Shown here: piece by piece, positions 30,901 through 63,614 of the stretch
How the letters are laid out: the number at the start of each line of letters is the position of its first letter
How positions within the stretch are numbered: position 1 is the stretch's first letter
Origin: Sabellastarte sp. h YS-2021
Taxonomy: Eukaryota > Annelida > Polychaeta > Sabellida > Sabellidae
DNA: 64,000 nucleotides
Direction: 5' to 3'
NCBI GenBank assembly: GCA_964017235.1
Contig: OZ024928.1
Span: forward strand, 89,089,566 to 89,153,565
The notes under the pieces: generated by a model
What the model saw: the letters and a program-made list of their open reading frames with translations, nothing else
Databases searched by the model: none
Told to the model about the DNA's origin: nothing
Position numbers and translations under genes: made by a program

Positions 30901-33900
30901 AAATTTCTTTAGTGGCTGATAATTCTATCAATTAAATGTATTACGTTTGCGACTATTTTGTGTGGATAGGGCATAAAGAAAATAAAATACTGTATTCGAT
31001 GTAATTAGTGCACAGTGCGCTCAGAAAAACACATTCACCCTGTAAATGTGATTTAAATTATCTTCCTAATAACCACACAGGCCTGTGAAAAGGCAACTCT
31101 GTCAGTAGAGATTGGATATATATATATATATACATGTATATATATAGTGATAACCTCATAGCCTGTGGTTTGGGCCAGTCTCCCTACTGAAGAACACTGA
31201 TATACTGTGTAATATAAGGTAGTTCATACATGCACAAAAAAAAATTAAATTATAAGTTCAACCTTAATTTGTCTGAGAAAATGATTTGTCTTTCTCACTG
31301 CACTGTATGTGCATTCTTGAATCATTTGATTAGTTATATTACACATTTTGGAGAAATATTATGCATATGCTGAAATCAATTTTAACATCCTTCTGTTCAT
31401 TACTCTGATAATAGGAAGCTTATACAAAATTCAGTTCCACTTATTGAAATTTATTACACCCAAACGGAAAGAATGTAAATTCCAACCAAGGGATTGGCCA
31501 TGTGATAGGATCTCATTTAATTGATTTCTTTGGGGTTTTACGTCGCTTTCAACACTGTACAGGTCATATCACGACGAGTAGTTGGAAGGGCAGAGGAAAC
31601 CAGTACATACAGTTCGTCAGGGTTCTGTACTGTAAACTGCCGACCAACGGCAAGCAACTACCAGCTTTCCCACTTGAGGCCGTGCCGGGAATCGAACCCC
31701 GTCCTCAGAGGTGGGAGGCGAGAGTGTTACTACTCTGCCACCGTGGCCCCTAGGATCTCATTTAAAACACATAATATGAAACTTCAAACATTCACTTGCA
31801 AACACTAATATTTTGACTAAATACACATTTTATTGCTGTTTGCAGTAAACAGTTTATAAAACTTGTAATGGGTTGTGGGCTAAACTGCAGGACAATAATG
31901 TTTTAATTTATGGACATTTGTTAAATACTACATTCAGTACACATAACTACAAGACAGAGAACTTCACTTGTTGGCCAAAATGAGGGCATTGAAGTGATTT
32001 TTCCATCCTGTACTACATCAAGTAACCTTGTAGAGGCTTACATTTTAACATTGTGAGTGTACATTTTATTTAGCTATAGCCTATATATATGTTGAAAAAA
32101 ATACTATAAATATTCAATATCAGTAGGTAAATTGTTGTATACATCCTTAAAACTCTCTATGATTCAGAAATAAACTCTTACAATGGGATTGTTATATTTG
32201 ACAGTCTGAGTTTCCACATTATCTGAACAAGGCTATGGTTTAGAAATCTCTGCTTAATGTTCTTTTTATGATTTTGTCTTCCTCAGCCAACAAAAGCCAA
32301 TTTGAAGCAGGACATTAAAATACATTTCCCTTTTAAACTTGAAAAAAATCTGTAATCAGAAAGTTGCATGCCAGTATACTTAACATCATGCTGCCGTAAT
32401 ATCTAAAGACGGCAAGAGGGTCAGAAATGCCCCAACAGGCGGGTTGCGCATGTAGCAATAAGGTTAGTGACTGCTGTAATTAAATTTAGAGACAAGGAAA
32501 GAAATGTTAGGTCACCCGGTTAAGGTAAATATGTTAGACGTGCTAAGAAATGTAAAATAGCATCAGAGATGCTGTACCCCACAGCCTTATGAAATATTTT
32601 TAACACCATGAGATACAGAAGTACTGTAATAGTACAAAGTTCAGGATGCTTTCAGAGCACTGTCAGTTATATAAAGGTCCAAACAATGTTTAAATAGAGA
32701 AAATAATGTCTAAGAGAAAGATAATGCATGTAAAGATGAAGTATTAAAACAAGACAATTCAATAACAAGATGACAGCATTAATCAGTAAACTAAACATTA
32801 TGACACTCTTTATCTATATCTGGCATGGCCGAATTATGGTTTGGATGTTTTGAATATTACCATGCAAACAGAAGTGGTAATACATTCAATGAATGCTTAT
32901 GTATGGTGTTGGAGCAAAATCTGTGGTTCACTTGATGAAATTCCATCTGTTACAATGGGAAGTTGTAAAAGTGAATTCTAATATGACTTTAACAGTGCTT
33001 AATCTGCATCAAAAGACAGACCCAAAGGTGCAACAAGATTTTATAGGTCAAGGTCACTACGACAAGGTCAAAGGTCAAATCAAGGTCACACAATGATGCT
33101 GCACACCTACAACCCCTAACCAATGTCCTTACCAAGCACCAACTTCCTACACCTTACAGTTTCCGAAATATAGCCCGGACAAGATTTTATAGGTCAAGGT
33201 CACTACGGCAAGGTCAAAGGTCAAATCAAGGTCAGACCATGACGTTGCACACCCACACCCCCTAACCAATGTCCCTACCAAGTATCAACTTCCTACACCT
33301 TACAGTTTCCGAGATATAGCACCGACAAGATTTTATAGGTCAAGGTCACTACAGCAAGGTCAAATCAAGGTTAGACCATGACGTTGCACACCTACACCCC
33401 CTAACCAATGTCCCTACCACGTATCAACTTCCTACACCTTACGGTTCCCGAGATATAGCCCGGACAAGATTTTATAGGTCAAGGTCACTACAGCAAGGTC
33501 AAATCAATGTCACACCATGATGTTGCATACCTACACCCCCTAACCAATGTCCCCACCAAGTATCAACTTCCTACACCTTACGGTTTGCGAGATATAGCCC
33601 GGACAAGATTTTCAAACTCAAGGTCACTACGGCAAGGTCAAAGGTCAAATTAAGGTCAGACCATGATGTTGCACACCTACACATCCTAACCAATGTCCCT
33701 ACCAAGTATCAACTTCCTACACCTTACCCTTTCTGAGGTACAGCCCGGACAAACTTTTTCCCGCCACCTGCCCGCCCATCCAGACACCATGGGTGAAAAC
33801 AATACCCCGACAGTCCTTAAGGGCTGTGGGGTAAAAACTTGTAATCTAGGTTACATAATTGTATCTATGCTATAAATGGACAAACGAATGGACGGAATTA

Positions 33901-36900
33901 AACCAATTTCGAAAGCAACTTAGCTATGATGGTGATCTATCTACCTGTCAAGTTTGAATTCGATTGGACAAAGCGTTTTCGAGTTAGAGTCCGGAAACGG
34001 AAATGTTGAGGGGCAGACAAACGAACAGACGGAATTACACCAATTTCAAAAGCAACTTAGCTATGATGGTTATCTATCTCCCTGTCAAGTTTGAATTCGA
34101 TTGGACACAATGTTTTCAAGTTACAGTCCAGAAACGGAAATGTTTACGGACAAACGAATGGACGGAATTACACCAATTTCAAAAGCAACTTAGCTATGAC
34201 GGTGATCTATCTCCCTGTCAAGTTTAAATTCGATTGAACAAAGTATTTTCGAGTTAGAGTCTGGAAACGGAAATGTTGACGGACAAATGGACAAACAAAC
34301 AGACGGAATTACACCAATTTCAAAAGGAACCTAGCTATGATGGTAATCTATCTGCCTGTCAAGTTTGAATTTGATTGGGCAAAGCGTTTTCTGTGGACGG
34401 ACAGATGGACATCAGACACATCACTCTAATTGGCGGGTTGGTTACATGCAACCTGCCTAAAAACCAGACTGCTGGGATTTATTGGTATCAATTATGGTGG
34501 TGTACGCTTGATGGAGTATGTGCGCTCATTACGTCGAATATGGTAACAGATTTTTGTGTGTTGTATTTTTAAGTAGTCATTTCAAAAGTTTACAAATCCA
34601 CCTAGGGAGGAACAGAAAAATTATTTTTGTGACAAGCCACACCTGTGGGTGTCACACCACCATTACAGGAGTTGTTTGCAGTGAAACCTGCACTTCTGTA
34701 TATGTATATCCACAGTGAGTATTTGATTAGTCATGACTCACCAAGTACAATGGCTATTAGCTTCCAGCTTGCATAACCAGCATACACTCACCGTTTCTAC
34801 TTCATCATCCATGATGTTATTACAACAGCCTCCAAAGACTAGTACTTCATTATCACAAGTGACTGCTGCTGTATGCCACAGTCTGGGTGTATTTAAAGGA
34901 GAGTATATCTCAGTCCACTGCAGTGACTCTCTGTCCAGCACCCAGGCATCCCCTGAAACAATGAAATGAAGCAGGAGGGAAATGTCAAGTGTTTTGCTGA
35001 AAAAAATGGGGAGTAGGATATGTGAAATTCCCACAGCATATATAAATTTCCAATAGAGGATACTGTTTGAAAGTAAACCAACACAAATTCAAATTTGTAC
35101 CAATTTTATATCAATAGAGATCAAGGGCCTAATGAAGTCACAAAAATCATGAATTTGTAAAGAATTTTCAACAAGTCAAAGAACTATAAGGGGGTTAGTC
35201 ACTTGCAAATTTCATATACTGTGAAGTTCATATTACCATATAAAACTATTGTGCCAATAATAACAGTAGTCTTTTGGCACAACTCTAACAACTCTATAGA
35301 ATGGCAGCTTTATCAAGTTGCATGTTCTTTTACCATCACCTCTTTAAACAAGAGGAGAGTGCCCGTGAACGGGCACTGTGTCAGCTGACTGAGTGTTTTT
35401 GATTTGTGAAGGTGATTAGAGGACAGAATAATTATCAGGAAAAGGGCTGTACAGAAATACAGTAAATGGTAACTGAACAGCAAGTTTGAAAGAAATTCTG
35501 AAGCTGACAGAAGAAAAGGATAAAAAAGTTGTGCCCTGTAAATGGTATTATGAAGGAAAATAAAAGGTAATTGTTTAAGTGTGAAAAATAGGTTAAAACA
35601 TATTTAAAGAAATACTACAAATGCAATATCCTCGTTCGACCTTGAAGAAGGGGTCCAAGGTCAAATCTAACCACACAAATACATTCCCAGCCCATGATTT
35701 CCTATGGTTTACCATTCCAAACCTCTAGGACCAATTATAAATGAGTTATAAGCACTTTTAAGCTTGGCTGTCCTCATTTGACCTTGAAGGAGGGGTCCAA
35801 AGGTCAAATCTGACCATACCAAAAGATTCCGAGCCAATGATTTCCTCTGTCACCAATAATAAGCGAGTTGTAGGCACTTTCAATTTTCGCTATCCTCATT
35901 TGACCTTGAAGGAGGGTTCCAAGGTCAAATCGGACCATATCAACAGATTCACAGCCCATGATTTCCTGTCTGTTTACCATCCCAAACCTCTGGGACCAAT
36001 AATAAGCGAGTTATAAGCACTTTTAAGTTTGGCTATCCTTGTTTGACCTTGAAGGAGGGGTCATTGAAGGTCAAATCTGACCACACCAAAAGATTCCCAC
36101 CCCATGATTTCCTACAGGTTGGTTTATCATCCCAAACCTCTAGGATCAATAATAAGGGAGATATAAGCACTTTCCATGACTGACAAAAAACACCTGTGGC
36201 GGCCATCTTTTTTCTCAAAATGAGGCCAAAAATATTCCCAGACAACATTTTATGGTTATTAATATATACTGCAAACTTAAGAAAGCTAGCTATAATATTT
36301 TTTTTCATCAGAGCAGTAATGGTGAAATCTCTCTCTACACACTGCGGCTATCCAGTGGATACAATGATTTACTCAACAGTGAGAACCTGAAAGTAGCTAT
36401 TGCTCAGCTATGCCATGACATAGAGGTCTGCAATTTCACTATGTTATAGCTGACCAAAAATTCTGTGAATAACATATTTAACAAATTACTCTAAATGTAA
36501 TAGTTTTCAAGTTACAACTGATTTACTCAACAGTGAGAACCTCAAAGGAACTATTACTCAGCTATGCAATGAGCTACATGTCTGAAATTTTACTATGTTA
36601 TAGCTAACCCAAAAGTAGGTGAACAACATATTTAAGCAAACTACTGTAAATGCAATAGTTTTCAAGCTACAACTGATTTACTCAATAGTGAGAACCTGAA
36701 AATAGCTATTGCTCCGCTATGCCATGAGCTATAGGTCTGTAATTTCACTATGTTATAGCTGACCCAAAAGTAGGTGAACAATATATTTTAACAAAATACT
36801 CCAAATGCAATATTTTTCAAGTTATAGCTGATTTACTCAACAGTCAGTACCTGAGAATAGCTATTGCTCAGTTGTGCCATGAGCTATAGGTCTATAATTT

Positions 36901-39900
36901 CACTATGTTATAGCTGACCCAAAAGTAGCTGAATAACATATTTGCACAAATTTCTGTAAATGCAATAGTTTTCCAATTATAACTGATTTACTCAACAGTG
37001 AGAACTTCAAAGTAGCTATTACTCAGCTATGAAATGAGCCACAGGTCTGAAACTTCACTATGTTATAGCTGACCCCAAAATAGGTGAATAACATATTGAA
37101 ACAAAATACTCTAAATGCAATAGTTTTCAAGTTATAAGTGATTTACTCAACAGTGATAACCTAAAAGTAGCTATTACTCAGCTATGCCATGAGCTACAGG
37201 TCTGAAATTTTACTATGTTATAGCTGGCCCAAAAGTTGCTGAATAACATATTTATACGAAATTCTCTAAATGCAATAGTTTTTAAGTTACAAGTGATTTT
37301 ACTCATGATGGAAGTTACTGAAAAGCCCAAAAGTAGCTATTACTCACTTAGCTATTGAGACAGACACCCAACTTACTCACCATATTGTAGCTATGAAAAA
37401 AGTAGCTGAATAACATATTTTAACAAAATGCTCTAAATGCAACACTTTTCAAGTTATAAGTGATTTACTCAACAGTGATAACCTAAAAGTAGCTATTACT
37501 CAGCTATGCCATGAGCTACAGGTCTGAAATTTTACTATGTTATAGCTGACCCAAAAGTAGCTGAATAACATATTTATACGAAATTCTCTAAATGCAATAG
37601 TTTTCAAGTTATAAGCGATTTACTCAACAGTGATAACCTAAAAGTAGCTATTACTCAGCTATGCCATGAGCTACAGGTCTGAAATTTCACTATGTTATAG
37701 CTGGCCCAAAAGTAGCTGAATAACATATTTATACGAAATTCTCTAAATGCAATAGTTTTTAAGTTACAAGTGATTTTACTCATAATGGAAGTTACTGAAA
37801 AGCCCAAAAGTAGCTATTACTCACTTAGCTATTGAGACAGACACCCAACTTACTCACCATATTGTAGCTATGAAAAAAGTAGCTGAACAACATATTTTCA
37901 CAAAATGCTGTAAATGCAACACTTTTGAAGTTATAAGTGATTTAGTGCATGATTTCATGAATTTTAATGCATTAAAAATTATTAAAAAAATTTATTAAAA
38001 AAATAGTAAGACAGATCCAGGTCTCATACTCACACAAGAGAATCTACCTCTGGCCTAGTACATATATGCAAGATATGAGAGAAATCCCTGCAATAGTCAC
38101 TGAGAAAATTGTGATAAAAAGTTGAAATTTTCACACTTTTGGTGGGGGTACCCCCCTTGTAATGTCTCTAGCAAACAGACGAACAGACAGATTTGCATGC
38201 CTTGAACACTTTTTCATCCTCGATAGATAAGGTATCTTTTAAAAAAAAACAGCATGTCTCTAGGCCTTGTAGTTTTGGAGAAGAAGTAGTTCACGCGGAC
38301 GCGGACGCCCACGCCGCAGAGTGATGACATAAAAATAAATGAAAATAGATAACAAAGGAAAAAGTCAGAAATTATCTTGTTTATGTCAAACCTCATAAAG
38401 TAGGATTTTAATAATTGAATTCCCCTTTAAGTGGATTTCAATGTTAAATTATGGAATCTTAGCTTTATCAAATAAAGGTTTAAAATTTACTGGGGCATGT
38501 TTGTCCAATATATTAAGCATAGTTTCAATAAAAATATATACTCACAAGTCCGAGTTCCTTTTTGTCAGAAGGTTGAGGTTAGATGAACAGATACCTTGTT
38601 CAAAAGCTTTGAAATTCACAAATTATATATAATCTGTTTAATATGCTCACTTACCAAGGGGCTCAAAGTCTGTGGTGTAACCTCCAACTAGGAGGAAGTA
38701 ATTTGGAGGAACTGCACTGAATGTGTGCCAAGACCGACCATCAGGTTCAGGGCCATCAATATGGAGTCTGCAAAGCAAGGTAAGGACATGCACACACAAC
38801 TGACCTTACAGGCTAGACAAAGAGAGCAACAGAATCTGTATCAGTAGAATCTCTAATAATACCCACAAGGTTTGGACCTAGGTTTGGCCAACTTGAACTG
38901 ATACCTATAAAAATGCAGTTCATGTCTGATTACCTCCACCTCATGACTGTTTGCTTGTTTGTTTGTTAGCGGGATTACACAAATACTACTGGTTGAAAAT
39001 TATTGAAAAAAAATTCAAAAGATGGCTCTTGGGACTGACCTGGATCACTGTCTGGCTACAAAAAAAAATCAGAATTTTCCTATTTACTTATTACTATGTG
39101 CTTTGCCAGAGGTCTGAGTTCTCCAAGTGTTTCTGTTAAGGCATAATTTGAACCAGTTTTGAGGTCCGAATAAGGCAATCAAAACATGTGTATTTTTTGG
39201 TACAAGTAAAAGTCCGTCATAAACAGAATCAATCCCTGTGGATACTGGATGTCTTGGTTGTACACATTCCATGTTACACACTTTTTTCTGATATTGGCTC
39301 CTCCTAATAGTGGTTATGCCTTTATTGAAAATACATCATTAATGCATACTCAGGCAAGTTATATCAGAAGCTGTATAAAGAATGTAAAGAAATTAGACAG
39401 AGTTTTTATTTTACGTCAAAAAACATATACAACATGAATCATTATTATTACTATTATTATATATTTTTCATCAAAAATTGGACATGAATATATGTGCTAC
39501 CTTGTCCAATTATTTGTATCATGGTTGAGACAATATAAATCATTCATCCTTTGGTCTTTGTGTCGCCCCCCAAACAAATACAAATGGCTACTGTTGTCAA
39601 ACTTGGCTACAGCATGGGCAGCACGGGGAAGTGGTATATCTCCCTACAAATTACAAGACACTAATACTAGTGCAGGAATTGAAATACGATTTCACCATCA
39701 ATATCATTGAAAAACTATTATTTAGCTTTGCATATCAATCAGTTTTTTAACTACCACTTCAATGAGTAAAACACAAAATTATTCACAGGAAGTGAAACAC
39801 AATTTAATCCCTCTTAACTTAGCTGGAGTGTTTACATCAATAAAAGCTATTTTAATATTGTAAGTTAAATCAATTTTGAAGAAAAGTTACATTAATATTC

Positions 39901-42900
39901 AGAACATATATGAAATTGTAAATCTCCTTTGTTTTAAATCCCTTTCAACAGCTACGATTATATGAGGACAGACCCTGAGCAATTCAGTGCCAAGTAGGCT
40001 ACAGACATAATAATATCTGTCTTCTGTTTTCGAGTGCAAATAATTTTCAAGATGACAGCCACTGTAGCCATCTTCATTTTTACCTCCGCCAAGGAGGTTA
40101 TGTTTTCGCCTAGGTTGTCTGTCTGTCTGTTTGTTTGATTGAGAACAAGATAACTCAAAAAATTATTGACAGATTTTGATAAAATTATCAGGATATGTCC
40201 GAAATGGTAAAAGGAAGAAGTGATTAGATTTTGGGAGTTATCTGGATCTTCTGGATCTTCTGGATCCATGAAATGTAATTTTTAAAGACAGATAACTCAA
40301 AAAGTTATGGACGGATTTTGTTGAAATTTTCAGGATATGTCCTAAATGGGACAAGGAACAAGTGATTAGATTTGGGAGTGAGCTGGATCACTGTCTGGAT
40401 CCATGAAAAATAAATTGGGAGTGATCCGTATCACTAGCAGCAAAAATATGAAATAGAGGGGGGGGGGGGAAAGCAATATCAGTGCTAATGGTAGGTTTTG
40501 AAAGTCCAGAAATTGAGCTCGCATGGTGGAGGTCTGCGCTCTCTGAGTGCTCTTGTTTTTAAGTTTTTTTCCCATTTTTTTTTTTTTTTTTTGAATGGGC
40601 CTAAAATCAATATCAAGCAATTAATAATTCACTTATGTGTAAAATTTGGCAATGAAATTAATACATGGTTTTCTTGTAAATATACAGAAACTGTGTTAAA
40701 GATGTCCAATAATTAGCCAATCAGCCAAACTATGAAAAATATGGTCCTCCACCTTACAAAATAAAATATTTCTACAAATTAGACTCCATAAGATAAACAG
40801 TTTATGCAGATAAACTACCCAAAAAGTAGATATTATTCCAGATAATATTCAATATTATATTTTCACATAGAATGCTTGCCTCTCGGGACATGTCCTCCTT
40901 GACCACCATGTCTATCATTTAATCACTTTCCTCTTATCTCTGTGGTTCTATGTTTAAACCCAGCTCACAACATCACACAGGATTCATGCAGAGCCTGTCC
41001 TGGTATGGCCTTGGCTATTAACGGGGATGTAAAACACCAACTTTGACATTTGCCCATCAAAACAAAGCTAAAGACATGTGTAGTGGGTATCCAGACAGTG
41101 AATGTACATGCAGTTGGGAAAATTAAATTGTCTTAAATGAGGAGTCTTGATATTTACCGTACACTTCACATCTCTCCATATTTCTTCCTCCACATCAAAC
41201 TCCAGTAACTGATTGTTCCAGCATTCAGACTGAAACTATAAGCAATCCGAAAGAGACAGGTATGTAAGGATGTTTCAGATAATATAGAACAAGCATTCTG
41301 ATGCATGCAATTATCTCCCGCCGCATAAATTAGATGTACTAAAGTCTAAAGCTAGTGTAATATAGCTTTTCTTGTGAGATGGAGGCACATGTAGAAGTAA
41401 CAATAAGCAAGAGGCACTTTAATGTTTGACTGCAATACTTTCAAAGACAAAAGGCATTTAGTCATTTAGTAGCTATTACTCTGCCATCCAAAGAGCTATA
41501 GTTCTGCAACTTCACTATATGGTAGATCACCCAAAAGTAGGTGAATGACTTATTTAGAAGAAATTGCCCATGTGAAATACTTTTAATGATAAAAGGTATT
41601 TACTCATTTTAGTAGCCGTTACTCAGCTATGCAAAGAGCTACAGTTGTGCAACTTCACCATGTGGTAGATCACCCAAAAGTAGGTGAATGACTTACTTAT
41701 CGCCGAAATTGCTCTATCGCCGAAATTCAATATGGCCGCCAAAAAGTGGCGGGAAAACGATTTTTGGCAAAATATTTCAGATGACTCTGTGTATACCTTG
41801 TGGGTTAAAAATTTCGCTGAAATGGCTGTATCTCACACCGTTTCCAAGATAAATGCATTTTTGCATTTCATGCAGATTCAATATGGCCATCAAAAATGAT
41901 GGGAAAACCATTTGTGGCAAAAAGTTGGAGATAACTCTACATATACCCTATGGGTGAAAAAATTTCGTCGAAATCGCTTTATCTCACACCATTTGCGAGA
42001 TAAATGAGTTTTTGCATTTTCCATCACTGTAAAATTCAGAAAATAGCTATTACTCACTTAGCTATTGAGGTACACCTGTAAAACTGGTACCATCTTGTAG
42101 GTACAGAGAAAATAGCTTAACAACATATTTTTGCAAAATGCTCTAAATGCACTGGTTTTGAGTTATAAGCAATGTACTCAAAGTAGCTACTAGCCCCATT
42201 ACTCAATTAGCTGTTAACCTAGATCTGCAAAAGCAACAAAAATATAAAGGCATAAGAAACAAAACCAAAAATAGTGGGGTAGTCCTTAGTACCCTGGGGG
42301 TCCAAAATTTGCCCGAAATCGCTCTATCTCTTACGGTTATTGAGATAAATGACATCTTCCATTTCTGCCAAAATTCAAGATAGCAGCCAAAAATTGGAAA
42401 AGTTTAAATTTTTCAGAGGTGCAAGAGGAGTAGCCCTTATTACCCTAGGGGTCCGAATTTTGCACAAAATCGCTCTATATCTTACAGTTTTTGAAATAAA
42501 TAGTATTTTCCATTTCTGCCACAATTCAAGATGGTGACCAAAATTCGAAAAAGTCTTAGTGGAGTAGTCCTTAGTACACTGATAACATATTTTATAGCAA
42601 ACCTCTATACTGAATACTTTTGAACTTCTCTGAGAATGCGTCATGACACAAAAAAAGTAGATAAACAACATATTTGACAAAACTCTGAATTTAATACTTT
42701 TGAAGTTACAAGCGATTTACTCCTTAGCAAAATATCAAGGCAGCTGTTACTCAGTTAGCTGTGGAGCTATAGCTCTGAAAATTTGCCATGGCACAGAACA
42801 TCAAGAAGTAGCTGAACTATAAATTGAACACTTTAGAAGTTACAAGTGAGTTACTCATTCGCAAAATGAGTATAGGTCTGGTGGATACAATAAGCTTAAA

Positions 42901-45900
42901 GTAGTAAATGATATGTTATTAAAAACTCAATGAATAACATATTTGAAAAGATTGCCCCAACTGCATAACTTTTCAAGATATTTGACATTTACTTCTTCTG
43001 TTATTTAGCTACAAGTGAGAACATACCTATTACTCATTTATTATATGCAATGGAGCTCTAAACTATGTATCATCTTATAGCTAAGGACAAAATAGCTGAA
43101 CAACATATTTAAGGGAAAAAACTCTAACTTCAATAGTTTTGGAGTTACAAAGGCTTTCCTCAAAAGTGAGAATTTTATAGTAGCTATTACCCAGCTACTC
43201 AATGTGCAACAGGTCTGAAACTTTACTATGTGATAGCTTATCAAAAACTAGATGAATAACATATTTGAAAAGATTTGGCTAACTTGAATACTTTTTAAGA
43301 TATTTGACATTTACTTCTGTCATTATTTTTCTACAAATAAGAAAATAGCTGTTACTCACTTATGGTATGCAATGGAACTCCAAACTATATGTCATCTTAT
43401 AGTTAAGGACAGAGTAGCTGAACAACATATTTTAGGAAAATACTCTAACTGCAATAGTTTTGGAATTACAAAGGCTTTACGCAAAAGTAAGAATTTTAAA
43501 GTACCTATTACTCAGCTATACAATGTGCAACAGGTCTGAAACTTTGCTATGTGATAACCTATCAAAACTAGATGAATAACATCTCCACAAAGATTTGCCT
43601 AACTTTAATACTTTTGAAGACATCTGACATTTACTTCTGTCATTATTTTGCTACAAATAAGAAAATAGCTATTACTCACTTATGGCATGCAATAGAACTC
43701 CAAACTATATACCATCTCATAGTTAAGGACAAAGTAGCTGAACAATGTATTTTAGGAAAATACTCTAACTGCAAGAGTTTTGGAGTTACAAAGGCTTTAC
43801 TCAATAGTAAGAATTTCAAAGTAGCTGTTACTCAGCTATTCAATGTGCAACAGGTCTGAAACTTTACCATGTGATAGCATACCAAAAACTAGATGAACAA
43901 CGTATTTGAAAAGATTAGCCTAACTTTAATACTTTTTAAGATATTTCACATTTACCTCTGTCATTATTTTGCTACAAATAAGAAAATAGCTATTACTCAC
44001 TTATGGCATGCAATGGAACTCCAAACTATATGTCATCTTACAGTTAAGGACGAAGTAGCTGAACAACATATTTTAGGAAAATACTCTAACTGCAATAGTT
44101 TTGGAGTTACAATTGATTTACTCAACAGTCAGAATTTCAAAGTAGCTATTACTCAGCTCTCCAAGGTGCAACAGGTCTGAAACTTTACTATGTGATAGCT
44201 TACCAAAAGGTAGATGAATAACATATTTGAAAAGATTTCCCTAACTTCAACACTTTTGAAGATATTTGACGTTTACTTCTTTCATTTTTTTGCTACAAAT
44301 AAGAAAATAGCTATTACTCACTTATGGCATGCAATAAAACCCCAAACTACGTACCATCTTATAGCTAAGGACAAAGTAGCTGAATAACATATTTCAAGAA
44401 AAAACTCTAACTGCAATACGTTTTGAGTCCTTTACTCAAAGTAGCTAAATTGCTATTACTCACTTATCTTTAGGCCTAAGTCCACAAAGCCAAAAAAAAA
44501 ATCAAGGGCGTGAAAATTCATTAGGACAATTGACAAAAAATCTGTAGCAGTTTTGGAGAAATCTGTGTGACACACTAACACACACGCACGCACAGGATGC
44601 ATTTTATAATCTCCCTCCCGGGCTAAAGCCCGGCGGGAGATAACAAGAATAGTAAGAATATATATAAACACAAATTTTACCAGAAAATTACTGATATAAC
44701 TTCACATGAAAAGGTATAATAATAATGTACAAATCAGACATCACTAAATGAAAGTGATTCTCTAGTCTTGGCGATAAACACTGCTTTTATGTTTTAAGTA
44801 AGCAAAGTTGTATTCACAATTGTTTGCATTACATTAGGTGGTGGGACAGAATGGTGTAATGCTATAAATCAAATATACATAATACATATAGTCATTGTGA
44901 AACAAACACAACTGTAATATGGACAAGTCCCCATCATTCTTCACACAAATTTTAGTCCCCTTATTTTTTCAATGACTTAGATTATAGCTTTACAACCATT
45001 AAAGTCAGCTTATTTTATATACTTTTATATGTCAATTTTATATACTTAGTACACCATGTAGTTTTGATACAATTTCAAAACAGTCAAGACACATAAAGCT
45101 GACACACTATTTTGCAGCTTTGGTACTAATGCAATGATTGATATATCCCAGTACTTACTGCAATACTGTCTACAATGAAATATCCATGTTCGTGAATGTA
45201 ACCTTTAGAGTTTGATCCATAGCCTCCAAACCAATAAATCCTGTAAAAATGCACAGCACGCTTTGTAAGATCATGCATTACATGCAATAAGGTCTAAATC
45301 CTACTTTTATGCAGAGGATTTTACATTGACCTGATTCAACATAATTCATCAAATATGTACAATTTCTTTTTCAATATTTCCCTTGAGAGAAGATTAAAAT
45401 TTAGTACATATACCAATCCTTTCAGTACTATGGTACTCAAATTTTATTACATCTGGTGTTTGATATTTCATAAAATAATTGATACTTGTATAATTGGACA
45501 AAGCTGCTTACTTATGATGAGACAAAGTTGAAACATTGTTACGCAAATATACTTATTTTTCAGAGGTTCTGGCTCCAAAAGCTAAATAATAATGGGTGCT
45601 AGTATAAATAGACAAAGCTGCTTACTTATTATTGTGAGACCATGCTGAACCTTTATCCCGTGGAGAAGGTCTCAGTGCTCCCTCTTTTAGTCTGATTTCT
45701 TCCCATGCTTTCGTATTAAGATCCATTCTCCATAGAGAATTCATCCTTCCTCTATTATAATCATCAATAAGACCAATAAATACATCCTCACACAATGGAG
45801 GGGGTAGCAGCTGTGAGTTACTTTTGTTTTGTGAGTTTGTACTCAGAAGCCCTGCATCTAAAGAACTACATTGTGGGCAATTAGAGAGATCACTAATTAG

Positions 45901-55425: not shown

Positions 55426-56230
55426 ATGCGATGAATAATATAAAATGTTAACATTCGTTATTTGCTCTAATACTACATATTTTAGCTGAAACATGGTAAT
55501 TATTTTGAAAAATATTTGTAAAGTTGAAGCTTTTAACCTTTGATTCACTTTCAGTTTCTTAAAACAAATTTCTAGCCATCCAAGTCTGAGGTCATGTTTA
55601 AATCATTAAATGAGAGGTCACTTTTTTCAGAGGATATGTTTTAGAGAAATAGGAAGGTTTCTAGAGGTGTTAGCCACAAATAAAGTAATAGAAATGGAAA
55701 AGTATTGAATATAGAACATGATGACATTTATAATTCAATTTAAATGAAACATTGTGACAGTTTATAGGGTTAGAAGTATTCTACATTTGGAAACAATACA
55801 AGGCTGTTACACCAGTTCAAGGATTATTTACCAATATTGTGATATTGGATTGACCATATATGGCAAAGGATTTCATGTGGGCTGTCCTGTAACTAGTTTA
55901 AATTACCTTTTTTATGCACCTATATAAATTGTGTGTACTCCAGTGCACTTGTGTGATATGTAAACTTTCTGTTCTGTGGTGTGGGAAGAAGGCACAAACT
56001 GAGATATCTGACCGTTTTATAACATGTTACTTGTTTCTGTTTTTGTGATGGTGAAATAAAAGAGTACATGTGCTTACATTTTATGAACACATCTGGGGAT
56101 AGCTAACTGATTAATAACCAGTAACCTGTTTCTGTTCTATGAAGTTGGAATAAGGAGGTACATGTGATTACATTTTATGATCAAACACTGGAATATCTGA
56201 AAAGTCTATGCCAAGATACCTGTGAAGTTA

Positions 56231-57494
56231 ATGGAATCACAGCTTGATACAGAAAGACGAAAGAGGAATTTAAGTGCAGTGTCCATTTCAAGTACTCCCA
56301 GTCCCAAACTTCAACCTCCAAAATATCTGAGGATGGCTGAGCATAAAGACCTTGAAACTGATCTAGAGATCTTAACAGATATGGGTAAGCAGCAAGAAAC
56401 AGTTAAGAGTAATACCAGACTAGAGCAAAAAGTTGAAGACCTTGGGGGAAAAGATTGATGAAATTTTAACATTATTGAAGTCAGAAACTGTTAAGACAAG
56501 ACTTGATATCAGCACATTACAGAGTGAAAATAAAGTTCTCTACCTACAATTAAAAGAATGTGAAGGGACTATTGTAAAGCTAAACTCCACAGTACATAAA
56601 CTTGAAAGTAAGGTAGAATCGCTTCAGATTTACTCTATGAAAACCAATCTTATGCTGCACAATATTCCAGAGGCTGAAAATGAAGATTGCTATGCCGTGG
56701 TCAATGCATTTCTGCAAAATGACTTGAAAATACTCAGTAGCCTTCTTTTTACTCAAGAAAACCCATGTGGGGACATTAGAGTGGATGTAGTGCACCGCAT
56801 TGGGCAAAAGCGAGACAAACCTAGATCACTGATTGTGAAGTTTACATCTCATCGGGGAAGAGATCTTGTCCTGTCTCACTCTAGAAATTTGAAGACATCA
56901 CCTTATGCCGTGAGTGAACACCTGCCACCCGCATTGAGAGAGAGAAGGGCAGCCCAAATCCCCCTGCTTATCCAGAAGAGAGAAGAAGCCAAAGCAAACC
57001 ATAATAACTCTCACATTAAACTGGTTGGTGATAAACTAATGATTAATTCAAATGTAAATACTGAAGCCTTTGAGAAGAACCGCCTTGAGACAATATCTTC
57101 AGTGAAAGACCCTATACCTTTTGAAAATGTGTTATACTCCAATCTAGTAACTCTGAAAGGCAGCAGTTTTCAAGGACATCTATATCCAGTCCACACTATG
57201 GGAGAAGCAGTACAGGCTCTTAGGTCCCTGTTACAAGATGAGAGCTCCATCAACTCTGATCATGCTATGTATGCATACAATTTTACCGATCCCGAGGGAA
57301 ATAACAGATCTGGATATTATGATGACGGAGAGTGGAAAGGCAGCACAGTGTTATCTTCTATTCTAGAGGATAGAAAGTTTTCAGATGTTATACTTATCGT
57401 AACCAGAAAATTTGGAGGGGTCTTCCTTGGGAAAAGACGATTTCAACTGATCAAGCAAGCTGCAGCTGAAGTTGTGAACCTTTATACTCCATAA
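56231..57494 (+). CDS. LINE ORF1: coiled coil, RNA-binding region and C-terminal IMPACT/UPF0029 domain (one frameshift)
   Basis: The ATG at 56,231 opens a basic N-terminus (MESQLDTERRKRN). One extra G in the G5 run at 56,444-56,448 shifts the frame; the rest, to the TAA near 57,494, is open. Order: coiled coil (56,450-56,636; TLQSENKVLYLQL, VHKLESKVESLQ); RRM-like RNA-binding region with TNLMLHNIPE and DVVHRIGQK; a C-terminal domain (LPPALRERRAAQIPLL), as in L1 ORF1p. From 57,150 an added domain reads FQGHLYPVHTMGEAVQAL, YYDDGEWKGSTVLSSILED and VTRKFGGVFLGKRRFQLI. These are the GH, DDGE-x-G-S and RxFGG-x-x-LG-x-x-RF hallmarks of IMPACT/YigZ proteins. IMPACT binds GCN1 in translation control; its role in a retrotransposon is unknown. 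Confidence 0.8.
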
Positions 57495-59554
57495 GTAGTT
57501 ATGAACATATGCTTTTACAAACTAAATTGAGTAAACAAGTTGTGACTGAAATGTTGAAACTTTATATGTCTTTGCAACTTAATCACAGATAAATTGCTAT
57601 AATTCAGATAGATTTTGAACCTTTATATTCTTTAGCTAAGTATGAACACTGTCAGGTACATTTACAAAAAAACTGCTATAATTTAAAAAGACTGTGACTG
57701 AAATGTTGAAACTCTATATCAGTCTGCAATTATGAACAGATAAATTGTTAAATTTCAGAAAGTTAAAATGAAACTTTATCTTGTTATATTTCAGAAAGTT
57801 GAAGTTGAAACTTTACATTTGCAATTATGAATAGAAAAATTGTTATATTTTAGATGAATCTCCGTCCTTTATATCCCTTAGCTAATTATGAACAGATACA
57901 TTTATAAAAACTGTTATAATTTAAAAAGACTTTGCATTTACTTTTAGTGTTAGTCTATTTACAACCTGCGTACCTGAATATATATATATAACCAGGTAGG
58001 TTGGAACTCTCTATCTTAATAACTGTGTTTAAGCTCATAAAGTTTAGGTAGAAATTTAAGTTCAAATTTAAATGCTCCTGATAATATTTGAAAATTTATA
58101 TTCTTTGGCATATGATAGATATATTTACATTATCTCAATTGTTTTAAGCGTTTTTTTTTATGTATACTTTGAATGTATTTTCATATACATTATATCCAAT
58201 GAAAAAATTGGTAAGCATATGTGTTATAGGTTAATAATACTGATTTAAACTTTTAAGCTACTCCATTATTAGCCTTTGGAAAGGTTGGAGCTTTCTGTCT
58301 TAATAACTCTGTTTAAACTGATAAAGTTTAGGTAGAAATTTAACCTCAAATTTAAATGTTCATGTCACTATTTGAGAATTTATATTCCTTAGCAAATGAT
58401 TGATATATTTACAAAATCTCTACAAAATAATTTTAAGTGTTTCTTATGTATATTTTGAATATATTTTCAAACTCAATTATATACAACGAAAAAATTGGTA
58501 AGGATATGTGTTATAGTTTAATAACACTATTTTAAACTTCTAAGCCCCTCCATTATTAACCTCTGGGAAGGTCGAAAGTCTCTATCTTAATAACTCAGTT
58601 TAAAATCGTAAAGTTTTGGTAGAAGTTAAAGCTCAATTTTAAATGATTCTAACAATATTTAAGAATTTATATTCCTTGTCAAATGGTAGATATATTTACA
58701 AAATCTCAATAGTTTTAAGCGTTTTTTTTTTCTCTATACCTTGAATGTGTTTCATATATAATTATATCAAACGAAAAAAGGTAAGTATATGTGATATAGC
58801 TTAATAATACTTTTTTAAACTTTTAAGTCCCTTCACTATTTTCTTCACATAATTATCTTAAAAGATTCACCAAATTGCTTTAAACGTTAATTAAATGTCA
58901 AGAAAAATTCTTTACAAATTTGATCCTTCACGGCCTTGTATGTATCAGTAGAAAAAAATAGGTTCCCATGGCATGACTACTCGAACAGAAGTGATAAGAG
59001 TTAGAGCTAAAGTCATACTATTGTTCTGTTCACTGACCAGATAAAAAAGCTTTAACTTGTGTTTTTGGAGCTTATATCTCAAATATAAGCTTTGTATATA
59101 ACCTAATAAAATTTAATTTTCAAGCTAAATAACTCATGATAATATCAATTGTTCAAAATTATACACAAATTAACTGTTCATTGAAAGATATGTCTCTGTT
59201 TCCTCAATCAGCAATGAATTATCTCACTATCCTTATTTTTCTTTTGTGGCTAACACCCACTAATAAGATATATAATTTGTACTACACTTGTAAATATGCT
59301 TTTTGATGTTTGTATGTTTTTTCAAGTTTTTGTTTTTGCTGCAGTACTCTATTTAAATGCAACTGCATTTCATGTGTATAGAGCTAAAGTAGGTATTTTG
59401 CGAAAAAATATGGAGCCGATTTTTAAAAAATCCTGCTGTTTTCACATTGATTTAAAATGTTCTTTTTTTATATTCTTCTTTTTGGATAGTAAAATTATTA
59501 TTTTTTTTTTTGGTGTGCCTGTAGAGAGTGTTATTTATAAACATACCACTGTCG
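57495..59554. repeat. LINE inter-ORF region with about three 285-bp tandem repeats
   Basis: Units start near 57,998, 58,282 and 58,569. Each carries TCTTAATAACT, AAAGTTTAGGTAGAAATTTA, a T-run and ACGAAAAAATTGGTAAG. The segment 57,500-57,960 has shorter diverged repeats around GTGACTGAAATGTTGAAACT. The region is unusually long between LINE ORFs and could act as an internal promoter for ORF2, which is speculation. Confidence 0.85.
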
Positions 59555-62500
59555 ATGCTTAATAGCATCCTTGTGTTGTCTGCGAACTGTAGAGGCTTGC
59601 AGAGTATGAAAAAGAGAACCAATGTTTTGACTTATTTCAAAGAAACAAAGGCAAATATTGTCTGTCTTCAAGACACACACTGGACTGAAACAGATTTACC
59701 TTCCGTAAGCCAAATATGGGGAAATAGGTGCTATATTCATGGTTCAAAAACAAATGCTAGAGGTGTGGCCATTCTTTTTAGAAATAATTTTGAATATGAA
59801 ATACTTGCATATAATTCAGATAAAGAAGGGAATTTCATTTGTTTAACAGTAAAAACTTCATCAGTTACTTTCAATTTGCTCACTTTATATGGACCAAATA
59901 CTGACAATCCATCCTTTTTTAGAGATATAAAAAATACTGTTCAAGAAAATAATCCAGACTACTATGTGATATGCGGGGATTTCAACATGGTTCTTAATCC
60001 GAAAATAGATTGTAATAATTATAAACATATAAATAACCCTAAAGCAAGATCAGAGGTATTGAATATGAATGCTGAACTTAACCTTACAGACATTTTTCGA
60101 AACTTTCACCCACAAAGTCCAAGATATACTTGGTGTACCCGCAACCCTGCAAAGCAAGCCAGACTTGATTTTTTTCTTGTTTCAAATTCAATGATAGATC
60201 TTATTAATCAATGTTATATAAAAGCTGGATATCAATCTGACCATTCAATTGTATTTCTAGAAATTGCTGAAAACAAGTTTCAAATAGGAAAGGGGATATG
60301 GAAATTTAATAATAGCCTGCTGAAAAACAAAGACTATCTTGATTTAATAAATAGAATAATAGATGAAGAAATAATAAATTACGCACTTCCCATATACAAT
60401 GTTAACTTTTTAAAAGAAAATTATAAAAACATCTGTTTTACCATTGATGATGATCTCTTTCTGGAATTACTCTTTCTTAGAATTAGGGGGGGAAACAATT
60501 AAGTTTTCCTCATTTTTAAGAAAAAAAGATAGGCAAATAGAAAAAAGTTTGATAAACGACATTAACCATTTAGAAAATACAGAAATAGCAAATTTTCAGT
60601 TACTCTCAGATAAGGAAGCCGCTTTGGAAGTATTCGAGAAGAACGAATACAAGGTCAAATGATAAGATCCAGGATTCAATGGTTGAGCGAAGGAGAAAAG
60701 CCGTCAAAATTCTTTTGTAACCTAGAAAGCAAAAACTTTTTAGAGAAAACTATAAAAAAGGTAAAAAATGATCAAGGACACTATTTAACTGAGCAAGCAG
60801 AAATATTGAAATATATTAAAAACTATTATCAGCATCTATTTGAAAACAAAGATGAAACATTAGAAAAGGTCAACTTGAAAGAACTTCTGAAAACCTGTAA
60901 TATTAATAAAGTAACTGATCATGAACTAGGTCAGCCTATTTGTGCATCGGAATTAAGTGAAGTCCTTAAGAAAATGAAACATAACAAAACACCGGGAATG
61001 GATGGTCTTACATCTGAATTTCTAAAAGTTTTTTGGGTAAAATTAAAATTTTTAATTACCAAGGCTATAAACAGATGTTTTGAGAAAGGGAAGCTATCTA
61101 CAACTTTACGTCAAGGAATTATAACCTGTGTTCCAAAAGGAAAACAGGAAAGATGCTATATATGAAAAATTGGAGACCAATTTCCCTTTTGTGTGTAACA
61201 TACAAATTAGCATCAGGTGCCTTAGGCAACAGGCTTAAATCAGTTCTTGATAAAATAATTTCAAAAACTCAGAGAGGGTTCATTGCAGGTAGACAGATGA
61301 GTGACTGCACAAGATTAATTTATGATATCATGCAAACAGCAGAAAATAAAGCTTTATCTAGTCTTCTTTTATTAACAGATTTTCAAAAGGCATTTGATTC
61401 CATCTCCTGGAACTTTTTATATAACACTCTAGAATTCTTTGGTTTTAGTGAGAAATTTATAAACTGGATTAAACTTTTAAATAATGATATTAAGATGTAT
61501 GTACTACAAAGTGGATATCTATCTGAAGAAATTTGTGTAGGCCGAGGTTGTAGACAAGGTGACCCTTTGTCACCATACCTATTTCTTTTCAGTGCAGAAA
61601 TTATGGCGCTTCTGTTTCTAATGAATCCAGAAATAATAGGTTTTAAAATAAATTCTAAAGAGTTTAAGCTTACTCAGTTCGCAGACGACACAACTTTGAT
61701 CTTGGATGGCTCACAACACTCACTACAGGCAGCACTTAACACACTTGAAATATATGGAAATTTTTCTGGTCTTAAAATGAACAAAGAAAAGACAAAAGTT
61801 ATATGGATTGGGAGGAAGAAATACTCCAAAGATAAACTTACTATTTCTGTAAATCTAGACTGGGGCAAAGTAGAATTTGTACTTCTTGGTATAACCTTTA
61901 ATGTAAATTTAAATCTTATGCCTGATATAAATTTGGTCAATGTTTTAGAAAATGCTAATACAAGTCTGAAAGTATGGCAAAGGAGGAAATTAACACCTTT
62001 AGGGAAAATAACTGTATTAAAAAGCTTGATACTTTCCAAATTTATACATGTCTTTCTAATTTTGCCAATCCCTGAAAAGTTTGTCTCAAAACTAAATACT
62101 GAATTTTTTAAATTTCTCTGGAATAATAAACCAGATAAAATAAAAAGAGCTACTGTATGTTCAGATCTCACTGTTGGTGGTTTAAAGATGGTAAACTTGA
62201 AATGCTTTATTAAATCTTTGAAAATGAGTTGGGTAAGAAGAATCTTTGGTGAAGATTGTCAATGGTTAACATTGTTCAATGAAACTTATGGTAACACTGG
62301 TAATTTATTCTTTGAAAATAGCTGGTGTGATTCTTTACTTCAAAAGATGACCAATACCTTTTGGATTGATGTGATCAAAGATTGGCAAATACTTTGCAGA
62401 AGCCAACAAGTTTCCAACAATTTAGATATTTTAAACTCTTGTCTGTGGTATAATCCACAAATTTCGAAAGAAGAAATGTACTTCTCCATTTGGTTTAGAA

Positions 62501-63336
62501 AAGGAATCTTCCTCATTGGGGACATTGTGAATGAACATGGTCAAATCCTTCCAATTGAAGCTTTGAAGAAAAAATATAATTTCAACCCTAATGTACTAGA
62601 TTTCCACAGAATTAAATTACTTGTCCAAAAATTCATCAAGATATTTAAAACTGGTGATTTATTTAATTACACAAAACCGGCCCGTCCCTTTCACTTACAG
62701 ATTCTTTTCAAATCTAAAAAAGGATGTGGGGATTTTTATAAGATTCTTCTGAAAGACATAGTAAAAGGACCAATTGAGGTTAAAAAATGGGAACCATTGG
62801 TTAGTGAAAATAAAAATGATTTTTGGAGAACAATTTATAAAATTTGTTTTAAATCTGTCCCTGATAACAAGTATATTTGGTTTCAGTATAAAATTATTAA
62901 TAATATATTAGATACAAAGTATTATTTGCATAAGGTTAAAATATCAGAATGCAATAAATGCCAACTCTGTGGTCTATATCCAGAAACTATTGGTCATCTT
63001 TTTTCGCAATGTAGTAAAGTTTTGGAGTTGTGGAAGAACTTGAAGCACTGGATCTCTGTACGGACTGGGGCAAACTTGAATTTAGATGAAACTACTAAAA
63101 TACTTGGATACTCTAAGTATGACAGTAATTTTTGGCCTTTAAACTTTGTTCTGATTTTGACAAGATATTATATCTATTGGTGTTCAAAGAATAAATTTTC
63201 ACTGAATGTTTTTCACCTACAGAAGGAAGTTAAAAGAAGATATAGTGAACATAAATATCTAGCTAACATTAAAGGCTATAGTATTTGTTTTGAGAAAAGG
63301 TGGTGTGACTGGCAAAACCTATTTACAGATATATGA
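59555..63336 (+). pseudogene. LINE ORF2: APE endonuclease and reverse transcriptase, three frameshifts
   Basis: Starts MLNSILVLSANCRGLQSMKK. The APE endonuclease shows VCLQDTHW (QDTH where QETH is usual), YVICGDFNMVLNP and YQSDHSIVFLEI. The RT shows TPGMDGLTSEFLK, LLTDFQKAFDSISWNF, GCRQGDPLSPYLFLFSAEIM and TQFADDTTLIL with both catalytic aspartates. The last 727 codons (61,153-63,336) are open. They end with a zinc knuckle, CNKCQLCGLYPETIGHLFSQ followed by C. Breaks: one extra G in the G7 run at 60,486-60,492; a shift at about 60,655-60,662 just before MIRSRIQWLSEGEKPSKFF; and an extra TA in TATATA at about 61,157. It nicks target DNA and reverse-transcribes the element RNA in intact copies. 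Confidence 0.9.
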
Positions 63337-63597
63337 ATAAGTAAACTGTTTCATAAAGACCAGAGGGGGGTAAAGAGCATATATATCATGTAAAAAAAAA
63401 AAATTTTTTTTTTTTATTATTCTTTTCATCTGCAGGAAAATGTTGATTGAGGTTATGTGCTAATTACGCTGAACTGTTTATTAACTTGATGCTAGTTGTT
63501 ATTGTTTTGAAATCTTTGTTTTTCTGTTAAACATGTTCTCTGGAATAGTTTAGATGTACATATAGAAACAAAAATAAAGAAATAAAAAAAAAAAAAA
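63337..63597. other. LINE 3' UTR and A-rich tail
   Basis: A run of A followed by a run of T near 63,393-63,416 can fold back. The tail is AATAAAGAAATAAAA followed by a pure A run up to the target-site duplication at 63,598. Confidence 0.85.
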
Positions 63598-63614
63598 TTT
63601 CCAGCCATCCAAGT

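Follow-up and report, generated by a model that had tools for sequence, protein, structure and literature searches.

The window, a 64-kb stretch of DNA, almost certainly contains a decayed LINE of the L1 superfamily whose type II ORF1 protein continues past its C-terminal domain (CTD) into an IMPACT domain, a fusion that is regular, co-inherited in many families of the element and under purifying selection. The LINE is 8.0 kb long, occupies ~55586-63589 of the plus strand, and has a poly-A tail and a 25-nt target-site repeat. Its parts are as follows.

55561..55585, plus strand: target-site duplication, 5′ copy; 25 nt, matching the 3′ copy at 23/25 positions; context TT/AAAA
55586..56230, plus strand: probable LINE 5′ UTR, from its position after the 5′ target-site copy and ahead of the first ATG of ORF1
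56231..56455, plus strand: ORF1 N-terminal part, basic and Ser/Pro-rich; its frame differs from the main ORF1 frame by one frameshift
56433..57494, plus strand: main ORF1 frame, with coiled coil, RRM and CTD followed by IMPACT
56634..57149, plus strand: ORF1 RRM and CTD, with the L1 ORF1p fold; the model matches human LINE-1 ORF1p 2yko_A in Foldseek, E 1.3e-7
57150..57494, plus strand: UPF0029/IMPACT (YigZ-like) domain and stop codon; PF01205; Foldseek to 6bqi, 2cve and 1vi7
57495..59527, plus strand: inter-ORF region, ~2 kb; tandem array at 57998-58840, period 287, 3 copies
59528..60502, plus strand: ORF2 APE-type endonuclease region, separated from the remainder by a break; PF03372 E 6.1e-15, human L1 ORF2p E 2.3e-29
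60659..61165, plus strand: ORF2 middle part, an open reading frame in another frame
61153..63336, plus strand: ORF2 reverse transcriptase and zinc-binding C-terminal part; PF00078 E 3.9e-33, PF13966 E 5.2e-9, human L1 ORF2p E 1.2e-33
63337..63589, plus strand: 3′ UTR, closed by the poly-A tail; the A-run continues to 63597, running into the 3′ copy of the target site
63590..63614, plus strand: target-site duplication, 3′ copy, directly after the poly-A run

The limits of the insertion were set by its flanking repeats. The 18-mer directly 3′ of the A-run recurs at the 5′ target-site copy with 2 mismatches, an upstream match equalled or bettered by 9 of 2000 random 18-mers from the window. Since the target-site repeats enclose both ORF1 and ORF2, the IMPACT domain lies within one LINE insertion. 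Assignment to the L1 superfamily follows from the poly-A tail, the target-site duplication, and an APE endonuclease and reverse transcriptase (RT) that are both nearest to L1 among solved structures, the only sequences with which they were compared. The best solved relative of the endonuclease is human L1 ORF2p (E 2.3e-29) and the first non-L1 row stands at 1.6e-10, with the LR1 and LTX endonuclease rows counted as the L1 variants that we take them to be. The RT, again against solved structures only, matches human L1 at 1.2e-33 and an R2-type element at 1.2e-22. Within the 64-kb window there is no second copy of the ORF1-IMPACT LINE.

This copy is no longer intact. Its ORF1 probably started at the ATG at 56231 and contains one frameshift at ~56440-56455, so that the N-terminus is broken; other ORF1 copies have a similar N-terminal start in frame with the remainder. 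At least three frames are needed to cover ORF2. The frame breaks in ORF1 (56440-56455) and ORF2 (60480-60500) adjoin G runs of five and seven, and a homopolymer assembly error is possible there besides real decay. Elsewhere in the window, positions 33033-44425 are crowded with tandem arrays, whose periods range over 137-477 bases.

The initial annotation had proposed, from motifs recognized by eye, that a normal L1-type ORF1 ends in an IMPACT/YigZ domain, and profile searches, a structure model and fold comparison all bear this out. The plus-strand frame 56433-57494 is open over 353 codons. PF01205 (UPF0029) covers residues 241-347 of the 352-aa ORF1 (window 57156-57476) along its full profile, 1-107 of 107, with E 1.2e-19 and 70.7 bits vs a gathering score of 27, and it was found in 7/7 further ORF1s at E 1.3e-14 to 3.9e-25. 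Each of the motifs that had been named, FQGH, DDGE, TRKFGG and LG..RF..I (LGKRRF..I in this copy), is present in the window ORF1. By sequence, the nearest solved relative is yeast Yih1 (6bqi_A, E 7.1e-7), with E. coli YigZ at E 0.35; a profile of 25 copies (alignment A3) matched 6bqi at E 2.7e-23, 2cve at 0.0024 and 1vi7 at 0.03. DUF1949 is not listed for the window ORF1, which stops 5 residues past the UPF0029 stretch. In first-order Markov simulations the frame stayed open in 6/5000 sequences modeled on the domain DNA and in 0/5000 modeled on the element DNA.

An AlphaFold2 model of ORF1, built on 25 ORF1 sequences of the same genome with the window sequence first, reached a pLDDT of 89.1 and a pTM of 0.71, compared with a pLDDT of only 36 for a model from the single sequence. 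The model has a long helix at residues 3-68 and then alternating strands and helices. Foldseek against the PDB at E<=0.001 returned 13 matches, 10 of them chains of human LINE-1 ORF1p (entries 2yko, 2ykp, 2ykq, 2ldy and 2w7a) and three from the IMPACT family, namely Yih1 (6bqi, E 4.6e-7), T. thermophilus TTHA1053 (2cve, E 1.2e-6) and YigZ (1vi7, E 1.1e-5). The coiled coil, RRM and CTD of a type II ORF1p are thus present in the model, and the description of the upstream part as L1-type is right by fold, although Pfam is blind to that part. No Pfam L1 ORF1 (Transposase_22) model matched any of 8 ORF1s at E<=1, and none matched the N-terminal part of the window ORF1 at E<=10, a level at which most of the weak hits are removed by HMMER's filters; the ORF1s have probably diverged too far from these models. 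A chance match to UPF0029 was ruled out by the Pfam score, the Markov simulations and Foldseek.

We searched the assembly from which the window comes (1.786 Gb, 647 contigs) for further copies. When the domain was used as query, all 150 of the scored candidates, the best 150 of 530, matched, at identities from 100 down to 40%, and many sit in open frames of 410-465 aa. In 20/20 long loci, picked for their long open frames, the order reads RRM-IMPACT-EN-RT, and 6 of these 20 have an ORF1 of at least 410 aa together with an ORF2 of at least 1265 aa from the first Met. With the RRM-CTD part as query and the best 150 of 1004 candidates scored, we found an entry of the domain list just downstream, meaning within 400 bases, in 94/150; this limit missed C4:156974272, where the match lies 449 bases downstream. 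From the remaining 56 hits 20 were fetched, and all 20 encode the domain. The RT search scored the best 112 of 28705 candidates, 45 of them in ORF2 frames of at least 1150 aa, and by eye 28 of these 45 have an upstream match in the domain list (itself the best 150 of 530) and 17 have none. One of the 17 was sampled and has no LINE sequence at the expected place, like a 5′-truncated copy.

Near-identical copies on different contigs align through ORF1 and ORF2 together, L046 and L047 over 7277 columns at 99.1% and L056 and L057 over 8752 columns at 99.3%. Of nine other loci, six are flanked by exact repeats of 11-19 nt (18-19 nt at two of them); one further locus has an imperfect repeat, and at the last two none was found. 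Because ORF1 and ORF2 align as one and are flanked by repeats, whole domain-bearing units must have moved. The 19 ORF1 rows (the window and 18 loci) form 13 families at 80% identity.

The regions between ORF1 and ORF2 are long in this group, 567 to 2963 bp across 20 loci, with family-specific tandem repeats in 15/20; such a region might contain a promoter inside the element or a signal for translating ORF2. At C1:80331079-80332164 the RT match falls in a frame of 1458 aa, vs ~1230-1280 aa in the other intact ones, and this frame may contain an extra part. Outside the assembly, no relative was found in viral contigs scanned with ORF1, RT and alignment A3, nor in genome contigs scanned with ORF1. 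The pattern YDDGEW.G occurs at 5 viral and 14 bacterial places, none of them related by tblastn at E<=1e-3 (best E 0.012).

The initial annotation had named presence in other copies and purifying selection as grounds on which it could fail, and on both it was upheld; purifying selection on the domain is evident between families. In the nine between-family pairs synonymous change is saturated (9/9) and dN is 0.19-0.46. For the six of these nine pairs that were tested, the nonsynonymous share was under the neutral expectation, with p 8e-10 to 1e-19 in a test that treats sites as independent and in which three of the six pairs share the window row. The eight within-family pairs have 0-19 domain differences and dN/dS of 0-0.58 where defined and say little; L052/L060, the sole such pair tested, gave p 0.04. 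Over the 78 pairs of the 13 families, mean identity was 0.542 for the domain vs 0.510 for RRM-CTD, the domain being the higher in 55/78, and the lowest domain identity was 46%. Nine families have an uninterrupted RT stretch; in these, domain identity ranged over 0.45-0.64 vs 0.48-0.64 for RT, and the two were correlated (Mantel r 0.70, p 1e-4). Domain identity tracks RT identity, and the domain has therefore traveled with the RT. Its retention by selection over many families implies that it is probably useful to the LINE, and the IMPACT domain probably does something for the element.

These results bear on two readings in which the domain is no working part of the LINE. That a piece of host IMPACT was captured once and rides along with no role might be suggested by the broken state of the window copy, yet presence in many copies and multiple families, constraint and co-divergence with RT speak against it; we count this reading as refuted and regard it as very improbable, and a one-off capture was ruled out on the same grounds. 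A host IMPACT gene with a LINE inserted in or beside it has an even more slender chance. The host does have an IMPACT gene, but in the window the domain is enclosed by the target-site repeats and continues the ORF1 frame, units of the same order are repeated elsewhere, and a probable host IMPACT exon sits at another place, on contig C4. This reading too is counted as refuted. The C4 exon lies behind a splice acceptor, shows 63% identity with Yih1 across 40 residues, and reads TRWYGGIHLGPDRFKHIN.

A search with Yih1 as query, in which the best 150 of 404 candidates were scored, returned as its best rows a longer type of ORF1. Eleven of the 150 rows, as counted by eye, sit in frames 538-560 aa long and have 33-38% identity with Yih1; L084, the one among them that was read, encodes a coiled coil, an RRM and IMPACT within 538 codons. 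Both parts of L084 ORF1 are homologous to the window type in 19/19 comparisons, at E 5e-21 to 1e-11 for the upstream part and E 2e-22 to 3e-15 for the domain. L081, L082 and L084 represent a second lineage, known here from ORF1 alone, with an ORF1 of ~540 aa and a domain nearer to Yih1. At L083, an open frame on the minus strand (534-1067), which presumably encodes a BIR (IAP) domain protein from its resemblance to one, lies beside an IMPACT-bearing ORF1 fragment.

In a tree of 35 LINE domains with Yih1 and YigZ, which included no animal IMPACT, all LINE domains fall on one side of a branch with support 97/96. The rows for the tree and for the conservation counts were chosen by an FQG-type motif, so the conservation of that motif is partly built in, and L041 and L045 were dropped; of 20 small loci 15 entered, with L061, L074, L075, L076 and L080 excluded by the open-frame or motif rule. 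From the tree a single capture of the domain appears likely. One subgroup of ORF1, A2 (within L062-L079; support 100/99), has HxGPN(L/I)G where the others read GG..LG. Yih1 and YigZ have the GG pair in common; by eye, its first glycine is replaced in 15/15 of the A2 rows, and this glycine stands at 0.57 overall.

The capture was probably not recent. Yih1 is identical to the window domain at 34/115 positions and to E. coli YigZ at 32/115; since the LINE domain is about as far from Yih1 as YigZ is and the host exon is far nearer, a recent capture is unlikely, which weighs further against a functionless passenger. Recent capture from the host was rejected on this comparison of the domain-Yih1 distance with the 63% identity of the host exon.

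The residues that have been kept are largely old ones. Among positions identical in Yih1 and YigZ, 13/28 have the same residue in at least 80% of the 35 motif-selected LINE copies, compared with 3/82 of the other positions (p 5e-7), and the window copy alone, in a separate alignment, keeps 18/32 ancient positions vs 16/83 others (p 2e-4). A histidine, DDGE, an arginine and two glycines are among the 13. The remaining 15/28 ancient invariants fall below the 80% level in the LINE copies, and judging from these substitutions the LINE domain may have switched its ligand. In the excerpt of PMC4503747, the invariant features of the ancient domain are placed in loops on one face of the molecule, and its function and partners are termed elusive.

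Our favored reading, which we hold at somewhat below even confidence, is that IMPACT domains displayed on an ORF1p trimer dock the ORF1p-RNA particle to the translation machinery. If ORF1p trimerizes on LINE RNA as in human L1, each trimer would display three IMPACT domains. The surface conserved from YigZ to IMPACT (H, DDGE, R...G...G) would then take hold of some component of the translation machinery that is itself widely conserved; the simplest candidate is the ribosome, or a factor bound to it. Such docking could hold the particle on the ribosome that is translating the LINE RNA, giving cis preference, or could sustain translation under stress; the route through GCN1 and GCN2 would be one special case of it. 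The parts of the Yih1/IMPACT literature consulted do not state ribosome binding by the ancient domain alone. The fusion, the selection and the docking, taken jointly as one explanation, we consider evenly balanced between right and wrong. More tentatively, and with clear doubt, one ancient capture could have preceded the split of the two ORF1 lineages (~25-37% identical), with the three domains per trimer acting as a translational counter-defence that docks to ribosomes or damps stress.

The initial annotation had instead suggested that the domain acts through GCN1 and GCN2. The domain would bind GCN1 on stalled ribosomes as a decoy, displace GCN2 and so block the integrated stress response during retrotransposition. 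When overexpressed, Yih1 and IMPACT do compete for GCN1 and thereby inhibit GCN2, according to the portions of PMC4503747 and PMC5054600 at hand. There is a precedent for an L1 influencing the stress response through a different protein: in the available part of PMC10289378, mouse L1 ORF1p is reported to bind PRKRA, and PRKRA together with L1 brings about a moderate drop of eIF2alpha phosphorylation in HeLa cells. The same portion of PMC5054600 assigns the competition of Yih1 and mammalian IMPACT with GCN2 to the RWD domain, and in that of PMC4503747 the Yih1 residues important for Gcn1 binding lie in RWD helix H3, where changes at D102 and E106 lower binding. The RWD model found no match at E<=1 in the window ORF1 or in the seven others (8/8). 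The decoy idea is weakened by this absence of the RWD domain needed for GCN1 binding, and many of the kept residues date back to bacteria, which are not known to have GCN1. With no RWD found in ORF1 and no GCN1 known in bacteria, the kept site is more likely to serve something universal, and we judge the decoy possible but unlikely.

We also considered that the domain might give ORF1p an additional RNA-binding or chaperone activity, which seems to us rather improbable, if with some claim to attention. The domain comes directly after the RRM and CTD of a protein that in L1 serves to package RNA, the other domain of E. coli YigZ weakly matches EFG_C (E 0.0011, under the family cut-off), and the UPF0029 fold belongs to the type of ribosomal protein S5 domain 2, seen too in domain IV of EF-G. 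Against an RNA-handling role, acidic residues outnumber basic ones in 7/8 domains (5/6 from LINEs, Yih1 and YigZ), with 13 K/R and 15 D/E in the window domain; L084, at 17 vs 16, is the exception, and overall the charge is near-neutral to acidic. The acidic DDGE motif is itself among the kept residues.

Compared with known systems, the upstream part of this ORF1 is ordinary and its end is not. Human ORF1p ends at the CTD. The human LINE-1 protein, also type II, has the same order of coiled coil, single RRM and CTD, and the LINE here adds ~110 residues that constitute the IMPACT domain. With IMPACT/Yih1 it shares the full-profile UPF0029 match, the motifs, the fold and RF..I after the glycine motif, and it differs in lacking the RWD, in the fusion to an RNA-binding ORF1p and in a domain identity of ~30%. 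YigZ and TTHA1053 have the UPF0029 domain, many ancient invariant residues and the fold in common with the LINE ORF1; however, E. coli YigZ carries DUF1949, which was not found in the LINE ORF1, and has LGTGGL in place of the LG/IG..RF of the LINE and Yih1.

Accessory domains occur likewise in the ORF1 of CR1/L2 LINEs (PMC3905857, as excerpted), as an esterase in type IV or a PHD in type III, but these are different domains and lie outside the L1 superfamily. The excerpt of PMC4120745 sets out ORF1 types I-V with the PHD and esterase accessories and the definition of type II, and does not name IMPACT among the types. The TRAS-type LINEs of Lepidoptera have also long kept a foreign domain, in that case a helicase derived from an RNA virus and located in ORF2 (the section seen of PMC5563155). 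The initial annotation knew of no described LINE with this fusion, and this agrees with the literature searched, where no paper was found describing a UPF0029/IMPACT domain in a retrotransposon; repeat and protein databases (Repbase, Dfam, UniProt, InterPro) lay outside that search, so the fusion may be annotated somewhere. Nor is an ORF1-IMPACT fusion described in the parts available to us of the hard clam genome paper (PMC8905726) or of two mollusc transposon papers (PMC11203168, PMC10294476).

The finding touches two questions, the cis preference of LINE particles and the translation of LINEs during cell stress. A LINE group that has kept a translation-regulator domain through deep divergence is a natural experiment on both, in which the conserved residues are targets for mutation. 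The partner of the LINE domain would reveal the ligand of the elusive IMPACT ‘ancient domain’ across all life.
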